A stretch of 64,000 bases of DNA, taken from Desulfovibrio mangrovi (GTDB lineage: Bacteria > Desulfobacterota > Desulfovibrionia > Desulfovibrionales > Desulfovibrionaceae). Shown here piece by piece: positions 48,294 to 53,752 of the stretch. The stretch lies in NCBI RefSeq assembly GCF_026230175.1, contig NZ_CP104208.1:2108001-2172000 (forward strand), in the 5' to 3' direction. Positions within the stretch are counted from its first letter, which is position 1; every line of letters begins with the position of its first letter. A program made the translations under genes and the position numbers. The notes under the pieces were generated by a model. The model did no database searches. It was given only the letters and a program-made list of their open reading frames with translations, and was not told the origin of the DNA.

Positions 48294-49655
48294 ATGCGCG
48301 GTGACGTACTCGTCGTCGACAAGGATAACGACTCACTTTCCGGACTGCCCGCCGTGCTGCGGGAGGCTGGCCTGCAGGTCACGCACGTGAAGAATCACGA
48401 CGAGACCCGTGCCACCCTCGCGCAGATGGACTTTTCCGTCGTGGTCGCCGCCCTTGAGGAACATCACGCCCACAAGCAGACCCTGCTCAAGGTGATCAAG
48501 GGCAACACGCCGGAAACGGAAGTCGTGCTGGTATCCCGCACGGCCACGGTCGATGCGGCCGTGCGCGCCATGCAGATGGGTGCCTACAACTACCTGTCCC
48601 TGCCCGAGAATCCCGCCGATCTCGTCATCGTCATCCAGAAGGCCTTTGAAAAGAGCCAGTTGCAGCAGGAGCTGCTGGAACTGCGGCACATGATCCGCGG
48701 CCAGCAAGCCATGCCCATGCTCATCGGCAAGAGCGCCAAGATGCAGGCGCTCAAACGAGAGATAGCCCGCGTGGCACCGCTGGACTGCACCGTGCTTATC
48801 CAGGGTGAAACCGGCACCGGCAAGGAAATGGTGGCCAAGATGGTGCACCGCCTGAGCTCGCGCTCGAACAAGCGCTTTCTTGCCGTGAACACGGGCGCGT
48901 TCAACGCGGAACTGCTGGCCAACGAACTCTTCGGCCATGAGCAGGGAGCCTACACCGGTGCCCAGCGCACCAAGGCCGGCGTGTTCGAAGCAACGCATCA
49001 GGGCACACTGCTGCTGGACGAAATCGGCGAAATGCCGCTGGGCATGCAGGTGCAGCTGTTGCGTGTTCTGCAGGAACGCACGGTTGTCCGCGTGGGCGGC
49101 ACAGAGGAAATTCCCGTGGATGTGCGCCTCATGGCCGCCACCCACCGCGACATCGAAAAGGAAGTGGAACGCGGGCGCTTCCGGCAGGACCTTTTCTACC
49201 GCCTGAACGTGTTCACGCTGAAACTCCCGGCCCTGCGCGAACGCGTGGACGACATCCCCCTCTTCTGCCACTACTTCATCGAAAAGTTCGCCACGACCTT
49301 CAAGAAGGACGTGACCGGCATGGACGATGAAGTGCTCGGCATTCTCATGGCCCACTCCTTCCCCGGCAACGTACGCGAGCTGGAAAACCTCATCGAACGC
49401 GCCGTGGTACTCTGCGACGGCTCGACCATCGAACTGCGCCATCTGCCGCAGGAGTTCCACAAGGCAGCCGCCATGACCCAGCATGACGTGCAGACCGACG
49501 AAGGCCTGCTTCCCCTTGCCGAAATGGAACGCCGCCACATCCTCAAGGTGCTGGAACACGTGCACCACAGCAAAGGGCAGGCCGCCAAGATTCTCGGCAT
49601 TGACCGGGCCACCCTTTGGCGCAAACTGCAACGCTACGGCATAGAAGCAGACTGA
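48294..49655 (+). CDS. Sigma-54-dependent activator with degenerate receiver (LuxO-like layout)
   Basis: 453 residues: receiver-like domain (1-120), AAA+ (about 142-370) and Fis-type helix-turn-helix (about 405-450). The receiver lacks the phospho-Asp (VVVAALEEH, positions 52-53 are Ala) and the switch Lys (YLSLPENP, Leu103), so it is unlikely to be phosphorylated. The AAA+ core is intact: Walker A GETGTGKE (171-178), the sigma-54 contact loop GAYTGA (218-223), Walker B LLLDEIGEM and PGNVRELEN. The HTH reads GQAAKILGIDRATLWRKLQ. Directly downstream are three GTTGCA-N3-TGCAAC sites and a -24/-12 promoter for a structured RNA, its probable target. Activity may be controlled by ligand, partner protein or expression level. 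Confidence 0.92.
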   Translation: MRGDVLVVDKDNDSLSGLPAVLREAGLQVTHVKNHDETRATLAQMDFSVVVAALEEHHAHKQTLLKVIKGNTPETEVVLVSRTATVDAAVRAMQMGAYNYLSLPENPADLVIVIQKAFEKSQLQQELLELRHMIRGQQAMPMLIGKSAKMQALKREIARVAPLDCTVLIQGETGTGKEMVAKMVHRLSSRSNKRFLAVNTGAFNAELLANELFGHEQGAYTGAQRTKAGVFEATHQGTLLLDEIGEMPLGMQVQLLRVLQERTVVRVGGTEEIPVDVRLMAATHRDIEKEVERGRFRQDLFYRLNVFTLKLPALRERVDDIPLFCHYFIEKFATTFKKDVTGMDDEVLGILMAHSFPGNVRELENLIERAVVLCDGSTIELRHLPQEFHKAAAMTQHDVQTDEGLLPLAEMERRHILKVLEHVHHSKGQAAKILGIDRATLWRKLQRYGIEAD

Positions 49656-49939: not shown

Positions 49940-49976
49940 ACTGCAATATCAGCACGTTAGATCAATACACAAATCT

Positions 49977-49992
49977 TGGCACGACTCTTGGA
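49977..49992 (+). promoter_or_regulatory. Sigma-54 (-24/-12) promoter
   Basis: TGGCAC-GACTC-TTGGA: the -24 GG (49978-49979) and -12 GG (49990-49991) have exact 12-bp spacing; only the last base of the -12 GC differs from consensus. Predicted start of transcription is near 50003. It is the only good match I found in the window. Confidence 0.75.
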
Positions 49993-50002
49993 TATACCCA
50001 AA

Positions 50003-50267
50003 CGCAACCAGACAGGACAAAGGTCGCATGCCTGACGGAATGTCCATTAACCTCCTTGGGATATTCCGTTGGTCACAGCAAGTCGGCAACCTTACTGTGA
50101 CCGGTACCGCAAGGTACCAGAACTCCTCCATACTCCTTCGTCGTGTCTACCGGGAACCTCAGCCAGTCTCCATACACGCTTGGCTATGAAAAACCCCACA
50201 CAGCACCACCCCCGTTCCCGGTGGCACACGCAAAAAGGCCGTATCTGATTAAGATACGGCCTTTTTT
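50003..50267 (+). ncRNA. Sigma-54-driven structured small RNA with anti-Shine-Dalgarno loops
   Basis: About 265 nt from the predicted start to a strong terminator. Hairpin 1 (50036-50068): 10 bp with one G/U, its 13-nt loop showing ACCTCCTT (50050-50057), the complement of AAGGAGGT. Hairpin 2: GGTCACAG (50071-50078) / CTGTGACC (50095-50102). Hairpin 3, stacked on it: GGTACC-GCAA-GGTACC (50103-50118), a GNRA loop. Then an open CU-rich stretch with CTCCTCC and CTCCTTC (50123-50139). Domain 4: ACCGGGAAC (50149-50157) / GTTCCCGGT (50214-50222) enclosing AGCCA/TGGCT. Such features suit a regulator that masks ribosome sites on target mRNAs, as Qrr RNAs do in function. It matches no RNA family I know. 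A 53-codon frame (50028-50189) overlaps it but looks less convincing. Confidence 0.7.
50232..50267. terminator. Bidirectional terminator of the small RNA and the isochorismatase gene
   Basis: Perfect 15-bp stem AAAAAGGCCGTATCT / AGATACGGCCTTTTT with loop GATTA and a T-run; on the minus strand it also ends in five T. Confidence 0.95.
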
Positions 50268-50343: not shown

Positions 50344-50916
50344 CTAGTCGGGCCTCTGGCATGCCTCCAGAAACGCCTCGCATGAACTTATCTGCGCATA
50401 CCGCATTTGCAGGGCCGCCATGAACGCGGCATGCACCTGCGATGCAGACACCTCAACACCGTCAAACACAAGGGAGCGAGCTGCGCAGGCATCGTGCAGC
50501 ACCGTGCAACAGTAGCCCAGATCAAATGCCGCACGCACCGTGGCGTCCACACACATGAGCGACATCATGCCCGCCACCACCAGATGTTGCACTCCCAGCT
50601 CCTGCAACAGGTCATGTAACCCCGTTTCGCGAAAGCTGTTGGGATAGTGTTTGGTCAGCACAGCCTCGCCCTGCACGGGCCTGACTGAGGAATGGATTTC
50701 CACCCCTTCTGTCTCCGGCAAAAAGAAGAAGCTGCCCGGAGCGACGGCCTCATGTTGAATGTGAATGACCGGCCTGCCCTGCTCCCTGAAGGCGGCAAGC
50801 ACCTGTCCGGCCTTCTCTCCGGCCGCAGCTGCGCCGTCCAGCTCGAAAGCGCCGTTCGGAAAATAATCATTCTGAATGTCGATCAACAGCAACGCCGTAG
50901 TATTCTTCCCCTGCAT
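50344..50916 (-). CDS. Isochorismatase-family cysteine hydrolase
   Basis: 190 residues. The catalytic triad of the family is visible as Asp13 (LLLIDIQNDYF), Lys89 (VLTKHYPNSF) and Cys122 (SLMCVDATVRAA). These enzymes hydrolyse amides or vinyl ethers such as nicotinamide or isochorismate; the substrate is not readable. AGGAGGTGGGGT precedes the ATG. It is divergent from a GlxA-type regulator 195 bp away, which is the usual pairing for a regulated hydrolase. Confidence 0.88.
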   Translation of the reverse strand: MQGKNTTALLLIDIQNDYFPNGAFELDGAAAAGEKAGQVLAAFREQGRPVIHIQHEAVAPGSFFFLPETEGVEIHSSVRPVQGEAVLTKHYPNSFRETGLHDLLQELGVQHLVVAGMMSLMCVDATVRAAFDLGYCCTVLHDACAARSLVFDGVEVSASQVHAAFMAALQMRYAQISSCEAFLEACQRPD

Positions 50917-51062
50917 ACCCCACCTCCTGCGTATTTCTGTGTTGCATGATTTGGTGCAAACTCACTGCCGACCCCCTGCCGGACCTGCCGACTCAGGGCA
51001 CGGGCCATTCCTCTTGTTTGAAAGAGTATAGGGCCGTGTCCGTTCCTTTCGAAGTGTCGCGT

Positions 51063-51091
51063 TTGACAAATCACGGGCGAGAAACGACAAT
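51063..51091 (+). promoter_or_regulatory. Sigma-70-like promoter of the GlxA-type regulator
   Basis: TTGACA (51063-51068), 17 bp, GACAAT (51086-51091); start near 51098, giving a short leader with GGAGG. Confidence 0.6.
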
Positions 51092-51111
51092 CCGTACACC
51101 GGAGGATAATC

Positions 51112-52131
51112 ATGCACATAGCCCTGCTTGCGGTAGAAAAGTGCCTTTATTCCTGCATAACAGGCATGCGGGACATGTTTGTGGTCGCGGGAGCCAGAGG
51201 AAGCGACGACCATGGAGCGCCCTCCTTCGCGGTGACCGTACGGACAATGGACGGAAAGCCCGTACAGGCCTTCGGCGGTTTTCCCCTCACACCGGACGGA
51301 AGCCTGAACGACAAAAACCTCCCCATACCGGACGTGCTCATTCTGCCCGCAGTTCTGGATGATCTGAACGCATTCTGTACCGATGCAGCCCTGCTGAACG
51401 CCATCCGCCACCTGCACCAAAGCGGCACGCTCATGGCTTCGGTCTGTGCCGGTTCCTTTCTGCTGGCTGCCGCAGGCATTCTGGACAGGCGGGAGGCCAC
51501 CACCCACTGGAATCTTGCCGAAGACTTCCGCAACCGCTTCCCGAAAGTAATGCTTCGCGCCGAGCGCATGCTTGTGGACGGCGGCGACTACATCTGTGCG
51601 GGTGGCGTCACGGCGTATCTGGACCTCGCCCTCTATCTGGTCAGCCGCTTCCGCTCAACGGAAGAAGCGGCGAGCCTTGCACGACTCATGCTCATAGACC
51701 CACACCGGGAAACCCAGACCCCGTATTGCATGGCAGGCTTCCGCAAGAACCACGGCGACCGGGCCATACTGCCTGTACAGGAATGGCTTGAGGAGCATTA
51801 TGCCGAACCGCTGACCGTTGCCGCACTCGCCAGCCGCGCCAGTCTGGGTGAGCGCACCTTTCTGCGGCGTTTTCGTGCCGCCACCGGAGAAACGCCCGTA
51901 GGCTACCTGCAACGTCTGCGCATGGACGCCGCACGCAGGCTTCTGGAATCGACTACCATGAACGTGGAAGAGATAACCGTTGCCGTGGGCTATGCAGACT
52001 CCGCCTCCTTCCGCAAATTGTTCCGCTCCGTAACAGGCATGCCGCCCGCCGCCTACCGGGAGCGATTCGCGATCAAGGCTCTCCCTGTCCGGCATGACAA
52101 AACTGTTCCGGCACACAGTCCTTCCCGTTAA
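51112..52131 (+). CDS. GlxA-family transcriptional regulator (DJ-1/PfpI + AraC HTH)
   Basis: 339 residues. An N-terminal DJ-1/PfpI-like domain (about 1-190) has the nucleophile-elbow Cys in SVCAGSFLLAAAG; the C-terminal AraC/XylS domain (about 215-318) has two helix-turn-helix units (LTVAALASRASLGERTFLRRF and VGYADSASFRKLFRSVTGMPP, motifs split). GlxA-type proteins regulate genes for catabolism of amides and related N compounds. It probably controls the divergent isochorismatase gene. The GGAGG site fixes the start. Confidence 0.9.
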   Translation: MHIALLAVEKCLYSCITGMRDMFVVAGARGSDDHGAPSFAVTVRTMDGKPVQAFGGFPLTPDGSLNDKNLPIPDVLILPAVLDDLNAFCTDAALLNAIRHLHQSGTLMASVCAGSFLLAAAGILDRREATTHWNLAEDFRNRFPKVMLRAERMLVDGGDYICAGGVTAYLDLALYLVSRFRSTEEAASLARLMLIDPHRETQTPYCMAGFRKNHGDRAILPVQEWLEEHYAEPLTVAALASRASLGERTFLRRFRAATGETPVGYLQRLRMDAARRLLESTTMNVEEITVAVGYADSASFRKLFRSVTGMPPAAYRERFAIKALPVRHDKTVPAHSPSR

Positions 52132-52321: not shown

Positions 52322-53752
52322 ATGTTTTCCGCCGCAACCTATGCCGAACGTCGAACCACCCTGCTTGCCCGTCTCAAGGAAAGCGGAGCCACCGGCATCG
52401 CCTTTCTTCCCGGAAACGTGGAAGTCCCGCTCAACTACGAGGACAACACCTATCATTTCCGTCAGGACTCCACCTTTCTCTACTATTTCGGCCATGACCA
52501 TTCCGGACTGAACGGCACCATCGATATTGATTCCGGCACTATGGCCCTGTGGGGCGACGATCTTTCCATGGACGACATCATCTGGTCCGGCCCCAAGCCG
52601 GACATCGCCGAACGGGCCGAACGTTGCGCCTGTTCCGCAGGTGGCAGCAACAACGCCCTCGTCTCCATGCTTCACGCGGCCAAGAAAAGTGGCAGAACCA
52701 TCCACTTTCTGCCTCCCTATCGCATGGACAGCGCCCACTGGCTGGCCTACTGCATTGACGAACAGCTCAGCACCAAATCCGGCACGGACATCAGCGCCTT
52801 AAAGCAGGCGGCATCCCTGCCGCTTACCCGGGCCGTGGTAGCGCAGCGTTCCGTAAAGACCATTGATGAAGTGACCGAGATGGAAAAGGCGCTGGGCATC
52901 TCATACGCCATGTACTCCAAGGCCATGGAAATCGCCCGCGCGGGGCTGGGCGAACGCTGCATCGCCGCAGCCATCGACTCCACGGTTGCCCTTGGCGGAT
53001 CGCGCAACAGCTTCACTACCATCTGCACCATACGCGGCGAGGTGCTGCACAACCACGACTACAGCAACATCATGCATCAGGGCGACCTGCTGCTCATCGA
53101 CTCCGGTGCGGAATCCGACCTGCACTATGCCTCGGACATCACCCGCACCCTGCCTGTGGGCGGGCTGTTCTCCAGCCGTCAGAAAGATGTGTATGCACTG
53201 GTGCTCAAGGCCCAGCAGACAGCCATCGACATGGCGGCTCCCGGCGTGGCCTACCGCGACTGCCACCTTGCGGCCGTGACCTGCATCGCCTCCGGCCTCA
53301 AGGATATGGGCCTGTTGCGCGGCAACGTGGACGACATTGTCCGTGAAGGCGCGCATGCCTTGTTCATGCCGCACGGTCTCGGCCACATGATCGGACTGGA
53401 CGTGCACGACATGGAACACCTTGGTGAGAACCACGTGGGGTACGACGAAAACCACACCCGTTCATCCCAGTTCGGACTGCGTTCCCTGCGTTTTGCCCGT
53501 GAGCTGAAGACAGGGTTCACCATCACCGTGGAACCGGGCTGCTACTTCATCCCCGCACTCATGGACAAATGGAAGGCAGAGGGGATCTGCAAAGACTTCA
53601 TCAACCACGATGCACTGGTGCACTACCGTGACTTCGGGGGCATCCGCATTGAGGACGATATTCTCATCACGGACAACGGCTGCCGCATTCTGGGTCGCCC
53701 CATCCCCAAAACCCCGGAAGGAATCGAAGCGCGCATGCACGCCCGCAGCTGA
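52322..53752 (+). CDS. pepP: Xaa-Pro aminopeptidase (M24, aminopeptidase P)
   Basis: 476 residues. An AMP_N domain (about 5-160, with LNYEDNTYHFRQDSTFLYYFG) precedes the pita-bread M24B domain. The metal ligands appear in order: Asp in LLIDSGAESDLHYASDITR (two Asp), His in PHGLGHMIGLDVHD, Glu in TVEPGCYF and Glu in GGIRIEDDILI. It removes N-terminal residues before proline. AAGGAGA lies before the ATG. A hairpin follows the stop. Confidence 0.93.
   Translation: MFSAATYAERRTTLLARLKESGATGIAFLPGNVEVPLNYEDNTYHFRQDSTFLYYFGHDHSGLNGTIDIDSGTMALWGDDLSMDDIIWSGPKPDIAERAERCACSAGGSNNALVSMLHAAKKSGRTIHFLPPYRMDSAHWLAYCIDEQLSTKSGTDISALKQAASLPLTRAVVAQRSVKTIDEVTEMEKALGISYAMYSKAMEIARAGLGERCIAAAIDSTVALGGSRNSFTTICTIRGEVLHNHDYSNIMHQGDLLLIDSGAESDLHYASDITRTLPVGGLFSSRQKDVYALVLKAQQTAIDMAAPGVAYRDCHLAAVTCIASGLKDMGLLRGNVDDIVREGAHALFMPHGLGHMIGLDVHDMEHLGENHVGYDENHTRSSQFGLRSLRFARELKTGFTITVEPGCYFIPALMDKWKAEGICKDFINHDALVHYRDFGGIRIEDDILITDNGCRILGRPIPKTPEGIEARMHARS

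Follow-up and report, generated by a model that had tools for sequence, protein, structure and literature searches.

Downstream of a gene for a likely sigma-54-type activator, our window (the whole stretch of 64,000 nucleotides analysed here, taken from the complete, 3.95-Mb genome of a marine sulfate-reducing bacterium) carries a sigma-54-type promoter followed by a run of hairpins and a terminator. This arrangement raises the question of whether the locus encodes a regulatory RNA and, if so, how this RNA is switched on and on what it acts. Taken together, the evidence indicates that the locus probably encodes a trans-acting, sigma-54-dependent small RNA, present throughout the genus Halodesulfovibrio, that would be produced via a dedicated activator and would mask ribosome-binding sites. 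The features of the locus are collected in Table 1.

Table 1. Features of the small-RNA locus, in window coordinates (MFE, minimum-free-energy fold; SD, Shine-Dalgarno).
Feature	Position	Strand	Remarks
Likely activator gene	48294..49655	+	Receiver-like domain, sigma-54 AAA+ domain (GAYTGA), Fis-type HTH; Pfam
Enhancer-type palindrome 1, TTGCATCCTGCAA	49801..49813	.	Spacing kept in 10/10
Enhancer-type palindrome 2, TTGCAACATGCAA	49818..49830	.	Pattern search and locus comparison
Enhancer-type palindrome 3, TTGCACATTGCAA	49888..49900	.	Pattern search and locus comparison
Sigma-54-type -24/-12 promoter, TTGGCACGACTCTTGGA	49976..49992	+	One mismatch to TTGGCACGNNNNTTGCW
Small RNA	50003..50267	+	Putative 5' end from promoter spacing, 3' end from terminator
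Hairpin 1, carrier of the anti-SD loop	50034..50070	+	MFE, 12 pairs, 50034-50045/50059-50070
Anti-SD word ACCUCCUU in hairpin-1 loop	50050..50057	+	ACCTCCT in 10/10 RNAs
Hairpin 2, invariant loop word CGGCAAC	50071..50102	+	MFE, 11 pairs, 50071-50082/50091-50102; stem rewritten between clades
Hairpin 3, GCAA tetraloop	50103..50118	+	MFE, 6 pairs, 50103-50108/50113-50118
Partly paired open stretch containing CUCCUCC and CUCCUUC	50119..50139	+	Ensemble accessibility, sequence
Long-range stem 50140-50157/50214-50231 with enclosed loop	50140..50231	+	MFE, 17 pairs
Terminator, hairpin and T-run	50232..50267	+	MFE, 15 pairs, 50232-50246/50252-50266

The promoter, hairpins, terminator and CUCC-type words reported in a preliminary description of this DNA are all present where they had been placed (CTCCTCC at 50123, CTCCTTC at 50133), and the 9-bp long-range stem described there is contained within a 17-pair helix of the MFE structure. 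The segment 50003-50267 folds with -102.3 kcal/mol, compared to a mean of -67.6 (sd 4.9, z -7.1) for 200 dinucleotide shuffles, 0 of which were as good as the native sequence. A structured RNA at this locus is very likely. ACCTCCTT is located at 50050, and the anti-SD word sits in the loop of hairpin 1, with ACCUCCU unpaired to 97% on average over the ensemble. Across the ten RNAs of the genus, the mean unpaired probability of ACCUCCU in the hairpin-1 region ranges from 0.56 to 0.99; in clade 2 (see below), the hairpin stem is short and the word is just 56-74% unpaired. Hairpin 1 is the weakest helix of the structure, with three pairs breaking in G003 and a different local hairpin forming in G001. 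Within the open stretch, CTCCTC at 50123 is unpaired to 85%, CTCCTT at 50133 to only 41%. A search of the whole window with 4227 Rfam families returned zero families at the gathering cut-off, which bears out the earlier impression that the RNA matches no known family; at permissive E, only weak matches centred on the terminator of the RNA appeared. At this locus, a simple promoter/terminator scanner missed the 50232-50267 terminator and reported no sigma-70-type promoter, although the terminator stem and T-run are plain by sequence, and a hairpin plus T-run ends all ten RNAs of the genus.

The module as a whole, consisting of the activator gene, three TTGCAnnnTGCAA-type sites, the promoter TGGCACGnnnnTTGGATA downstream of the activator gene, the RNA and its terminator, is found in 10/10 Halodesulfovibrio genomes. 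The genus splits into two clades, whose RNAs have little common sequence: clade 1, to which the window belongs (n = 4, RNAs of 263-265 nt), and clade 2 (n = 6, 210-214 nt). A DNA search with the RNA retrieved 4 of the 288 genomes of the family at E 1e-5, including the window's own. Mafft did not bring the clades together when given the ten full RNAs, and an alignment in which the clade stems were out of register was excluded from the pair counts.

Pairing is preserved where sequence is not. In hairpin 2, 91.6% of 119 cells across the 10 RNAs pair, and the covariation score of 0.659 (0.288 in shuffles) was reached by 0 of 500 shuffles; when the partners were slid by 1-3 columns as a control, just 23-38% remained paired. 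Two of the five measures applied to this hairpin did not exceed the shuffles, namely the pairs with both-sided change (80/500) and the further pair types (353/500). Of the 12 positions compared in the long-range stem, 11 are paired in all four clade-1 RNAs and all 12 in the six clade-2 RNAs, with sequences that differ between the clades and pairing kept in 10/10. Internally, clade 1 shows both-sided changes in 5 of 79 pairs (hairpin 3 of G004 accounts for two) and clade 2 in 0 of 61. Compensatory changes in the stems of relatives, the absence of which had been named as an argument against the RNA, thus exist, both within clade 1 and in hairpin 2, where 28 cells are changed on both sides. By these sequence comparisons, the small-RNA family appears real and conserved.

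What the two clades have in common is restricted to a few words. Outside the terminator, the 7-mers found in all four clade-1 and all six clade-2 RNAs are ACCTCCT, CTCCTCC, TCCTCCA, CGGCAAC and GGCAACC; the common 8-mers are CTCCTCCA and CGGCAACC, and there is no common 9-mer. Every shared word of 7 or 8 is therefore either of the anti-SD type (ACCTCCT, CTCCTCCA) or part of CGGCAACC, and at least five common 7-mers arose in 15 of 2000 block shuffles. ACCTCCT lies 27-31 nt ahead of CGGCAAC in 10/10 RNAs, and CGGCAACC is conserved in the loop of hairpin 2 in both clades. CTCCTCCA does not occupy equivalent positions: clade 1 has it in the open stretch, clade 2 in hairpin 1. The clade-2 open stretch carries CTCCTC. 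The two clades provide a natural contrast, in which the stems are rewritten and the loop words stay the same. Among the 288 genomes, an RNA model built from clade 2 (R1) recovered 6/6 clade-2 and 0/4 clade-1 RNAs with weak matches in 2 other genomes, and a model built from clade 1 (R2) recovered 4/4 clade-1 and 0/6 clade-2 RNAs with weak matches in 11 others. Five of the outside R2 loci were read, and a terminator-like 3' hairpin was their sole common feature. The negative result beyond the genus is weak, because each RNA model misses the other clade.

The control region is conserved together with the RNA. Promoter-type matches across the whole window number 3, compared to 4.2 expected, and since this is no excess over chance, the promoter site by itself proves nothing. 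The -12 element reads TTGG instead of TTGC in 10/10 promoters of the genus, which counts against the sigma-54 model; sigma-54 is encoded in the window's genome. Measured from the promoter TGG, the three TTGCAnnnTGCAA-type sites upstream of each RNA lie within the ranges -173 to -179, -156 to -162 and -87 to -92; over the ten genomes, 26/30 sites are exact and 4/30 have one mismatch. Such a set of three palindromes with conserved spacing hints that the neighbouring regulator may bind the RNA promoter. Exact TTGCANNNTGCAA occurs at 9 places in the window's genome, three of which belong to the RNA locus, and the reversed pattern, taken as control, at 1; a pattern search found no sigma-54-like site within 400 bases of the other 6, and 5 of these 6 fall within stop-free stretches of at least 100 codons. 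With a third of the exact genomic sites here and no sigma-54-like site near the rest, the distribution of the pattern points to the regulator and the RNA as a dedicated pair.

An orthologue of the activator is encoded directly upstream of the RNA in 10/10 genomes of the genus. Identity to the window's protein is 90-100% among the four clade-1 genomes and 67-68% among the six of clade 2. In 6/6 aligned rows of the genus, the receiver carries substitutions at both the phospho-accepting Asp (Ala in clade 1, Gly in clade 2) and the TKP lysine. The g11 relatives keep both the Asp and the lysine, and the G083 and G062 relatives have Asn at the Asp position with the lysine kept. Because Asp and Lys are lost, kinase control of the activator appears unlikely in this genus, and the activator probably needs no kinase. 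A conserved LE(E/D)HHA segment occupies the place of the lost Asp in these aligned receivers. When the activator's own ribosome site was examined for feedback by the RNA, none of the start regions read, from 8 of the 10 genus loci (that of G003 in shortened form), contained AGGAGGT. The profile PF17209, which detects Hfq in 5/14 control genomes and which a very divergent Hfq could escape, found no Hfq in the window's genome.

On the far side of the RNA, the next gene in the window (50344-50916) lies on the opposite strand and encodes an isochorismatase domain. In the two clade-2 loci read (L084 and L085, by eye), an aminopeptidase P gene comes after the RNA on the same strand; its counterpart in the window, compared by eye, lies at 52322-53752. 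As this counterpart is also downstream of the window's RNA, the locus is syntenic. In the window, two genes (50344-52131) separate the RNA from aminopeptidase P, the isochorismatase-domain gene and one for an AraC-type regulator that also has a DJ-1/PfpI domain; neither is present in this interval in the two clade-2 loci.

We postulate that the activator encoded just upstream would bind the three TTGCAnnnTGCAA sites and open the promoter, its activity, with no Asp in the receiver, probably being set by something other than a kinase. Once folded, the RNA would expose ACCUCCU in the hairpin-1 region along with further CUCC words in the open stretch. Being copies of the 16S rRNA 3' end, these words may pair with mRNA SD sequences and so keep ribosomes off. 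Sequence, accessibility and conservation are what suggest this pairing step, and we regard an anti-SD mode of action as somewhat probable. Masking of ribosome sites in this manner would proceed without Hfq. The invariant CGGCAACC loop might, speculatively, serve as a second contact, either with a protein or as a second base-pairing seed. The locus would represent a compact module with a testable mechanism, namely anti-SD pairing.

The same features may be read differently. An RNA that binds or titrates a protein would use its CUCC stretches and CGGCAACC loop to sequester an RNA-binding protein, with the anti-SD match as a by-product. This reading draws on CGGCAACC, which is kept between the clades at least as well as the anti-SD word and need not be a seed, and on the long loop, a C/A-rich strand with CACCAC that is 94-100% unpaired in all ten RNAs. 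We nevertheless consider it rather unlikely, as ACCUCCU matches the anti-SD core exactly and both clades retain it in the hairpin-1 region, and no partner protein is known. The segment could also be a 5' leader or attenuator of the following gene instead of a free small RNA, as the same-strand aminopeptidase P gene in the two clade-2 loci might suggest; with a terminator hairpin and T-run in 10/10 loci and the window's next gene on the other strand, such a leader is quite improbable.

The case for an mRNA encoding a small protein, be it the product of the 53-codon frame at 50028 or one matching the 35-37 aa proteins beside related regulators, comes from G019, G242 and G030, where regulators of this type are followed by a sigma-54-type promoter and then a 35-37 aa frame. 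In place of the ATG at 50028, G006 has AAG and G003 has AAC; G004 lacks two of the three bases. Codon-level conservation of the 53-codon frame, which the preliminary description had set against an RNA, is thereby contradicted: the start codon is lost in 3/3 close relatives, indels not divisible by three follow it, and it is stem pairing that is kept instead. A small-protein reading of the 50028 frame was ruled out on the strength of the lost starts and frame-shifting indels, and the 35-37 aa type of frame, recognizable by a FAQAND motif, is absent from the Halodesulfovibrio loci scanned, so that we give an mRNA for a small protein hardly any credence. It is also highly improbable that there is no functional RNA at all and that a terminator and chance hairpins merely follow an unused promoter. 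The promoter match by itself does not rise above chance, as this would predict, but the module recurs in 10/10 genomes with stems that are rewritten yet paired. The reading we retain is a small RNA that would act in trans by masking ribosome-binding sites.

Which mRNAs such an RNA would act on was approached by limited target searches. These gave no candidate target holding in both clades; of the earlier proposal of an RNA blocking the ribosome sites of many mRNAs, the structured, apparently non-coding RNA is supported, and action on many mRNAs is conjectural. In G000, CCAAGGAGGT is followed at a distance of 2-9 bases by an ATG three times, one case being the antisense of the RNA itself, and only the hisG case (CCAAGGAGGT-N9-ATG) is kept in 4/4 clade-1 genomes. 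The same CCAAGGAGGT stands at hisG in 11 of 17 rows outside clade 1, counted by eye in a motif comparison that read 21 of 30 loci and missed 6 clade-2 loci and 3 others; the outside genomes with this hisG word yielded no such RNA. Since this SD is common outside the genus, it is not evidence of a target, and hisG was rejected as a conserved target, its SD being ancestral. At hisG, for example at L172 (G000:C1:2769250), the SD CCAAGGAGGT lies within the final codons of the preceding gene (hisI by eye); it is also seen in further families of the order. CAAGGAGGT with an ATG 3-9 bases on was found at 9, 11, 12 and 9 places in G000, G006, G003 and G004, compared to 6, 2, 5 and 2 for the reversed control. 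Sites with identical spacer in 4/4 clade-1 genomes belong to hisG, flagellin and the small subunit of a [NiFe]-hydrogenase (names by eye), of which the flagellin and hydrogenase SDs are suggestive only as candidate targets. For clade 2, 14 places combine GGAGGAGGT with an ATG 2-9 bases further along; five are the antisense of the RNA, and none is a gene listed in the clade-1 CCAAGGAGGT search (by eye).

The general kind of RNA is known, and the combination found here is new. The preliminary description covered neither the neighbouring activator gene and its three enhancer-type sites nor the invariant CGGCAACC loop and the Desulfovibrio precedents in print. Small-RNA control in sulfate reducers is little known; in the available part of one report, the Desulfovibrio vulgaris regulator DVU0679 targets the small RNA Dv_sRNA2 of unknown function just downstream of its own gene, with possible counterparts in two other Desulfovibrio (PMC3333781), and non-coding RNAs downstream of both DVU0653 and DVU0679 appear in another (PMC4641369). 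As at those loci, whose regulators target the adjacent RNAs, the RNA gene lies directly downstream of a sigma-54 response-regulator gene, and here too it has a sigma-54 promoter. The AAA+ motif is GAYTGS in DVU0679 and GAFTGA in DVU0653, versus GAYTGA in the window's activator. Compared by description only, neither Dv_sRNA2 nor the DVU0653 RNA is said to have an anti-SD loop in the available portions of PMC3333781 and PMC4641369. Anti-SD terms do not occur in the accessible part of a computational list for O. alaskensis (PMC11124144), and among the titles retrieved on Desulfovibrio and anti-Shine-Dalgarno, none is about such an RNA.

Of the better-described systems, the Vibrio qrr genes are preceded by the LuxO site TTGCAW3TGCAA, as given in excerpts of PMC11443567 and PMC10162802. 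The present locus resembles LuxO/qrr1 in having a sigma-54 activator gene beside a small-RNA gene and, before a sigma-54-type promoter, TTGCAN3TGCAA enhancer sites, the middle three bases of which are not all A/T in the window. Unlike LuxO, which by these excerpts acts in phosphorylated form, the window's activator has a receiver devoid of the Asp. Qrr RNAs use Hfq, whereas the PF17209 search found none in the window's genome. The RNA also differs from Qrr in matching no Rfam family, Qrr presumably being among the families searched.

Hfq-independent blocking of a ribosome site by anti-SD loops is described for NfeR1 of Rhizobiales in the available sections of PMC10746234, and NfeR1/alpha-r14, SmelA075 and SmelA099 have three or four hairpins with variable stems and anti-SD loops (PMC10746234, PMC3927594). 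The likeness lies in an anti-SD word in a hairpin loop and in stems that diverge while loops stay. In the NfeR1 type, as far as those sections go, each of the three or four hairpins carries CCUCCUCCC and control is by LsrB and NtrC, whereas here one hairpin with ACCUCCU is accompanied by open stretches behind a sigma-54-type promoter; the other hairpins have CGGCAAC and GNRA-type loops and form no CCUCCUCCC set of three or four. GlmY/QseF (PMC6075780) likewise combines a sigma-54-dependent small RNA with a response regulator acting via upstream sites, at an unrelated locus and with no anti-SD loop stated in the part of that source at hand.

Outside the genus, the nearest regulators (46-53% identity to the window's) have different genes downstream. 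We compared the regions downstream of 20 other regulator genes, from 19 other genomes plus one paralogue in the window's genome. Two filters covered 7 and 12 of them, 14 of the 20 together, and ACCTCCT was absent from the next 700 bases (389 in one) after all 12 regulators of the second. An exact TTGCATTATGCAA follows the regulator in G030, and a one-mismatch site lies at -91 in G242. If payload exchange is real, one regulator-and-promoter unit would have swapped a small protein for an RNA. A fuller scheme, in which the RNA mimics the 16S tail and competes as a decoy with the ribosome for SD sequences, under an aspartate-less, phosphorylation-independent activator, without Hfq and with its origin in such an exchange, is tentative and, taken whole, doubtful. 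The FAQAND frames of 35-37 aa behind sigma-54-type promoters, at L071 (G019), L073 (G242) and L154 (G030), with a further FAQAND frame near the regulator in L058 (G023), form an unnamed small-protein family. At L144 (G062) and L072 (G083), a cytidylate-kinase-like gene (by eye) stands behind the sigma-54-type promoter after the regulator.
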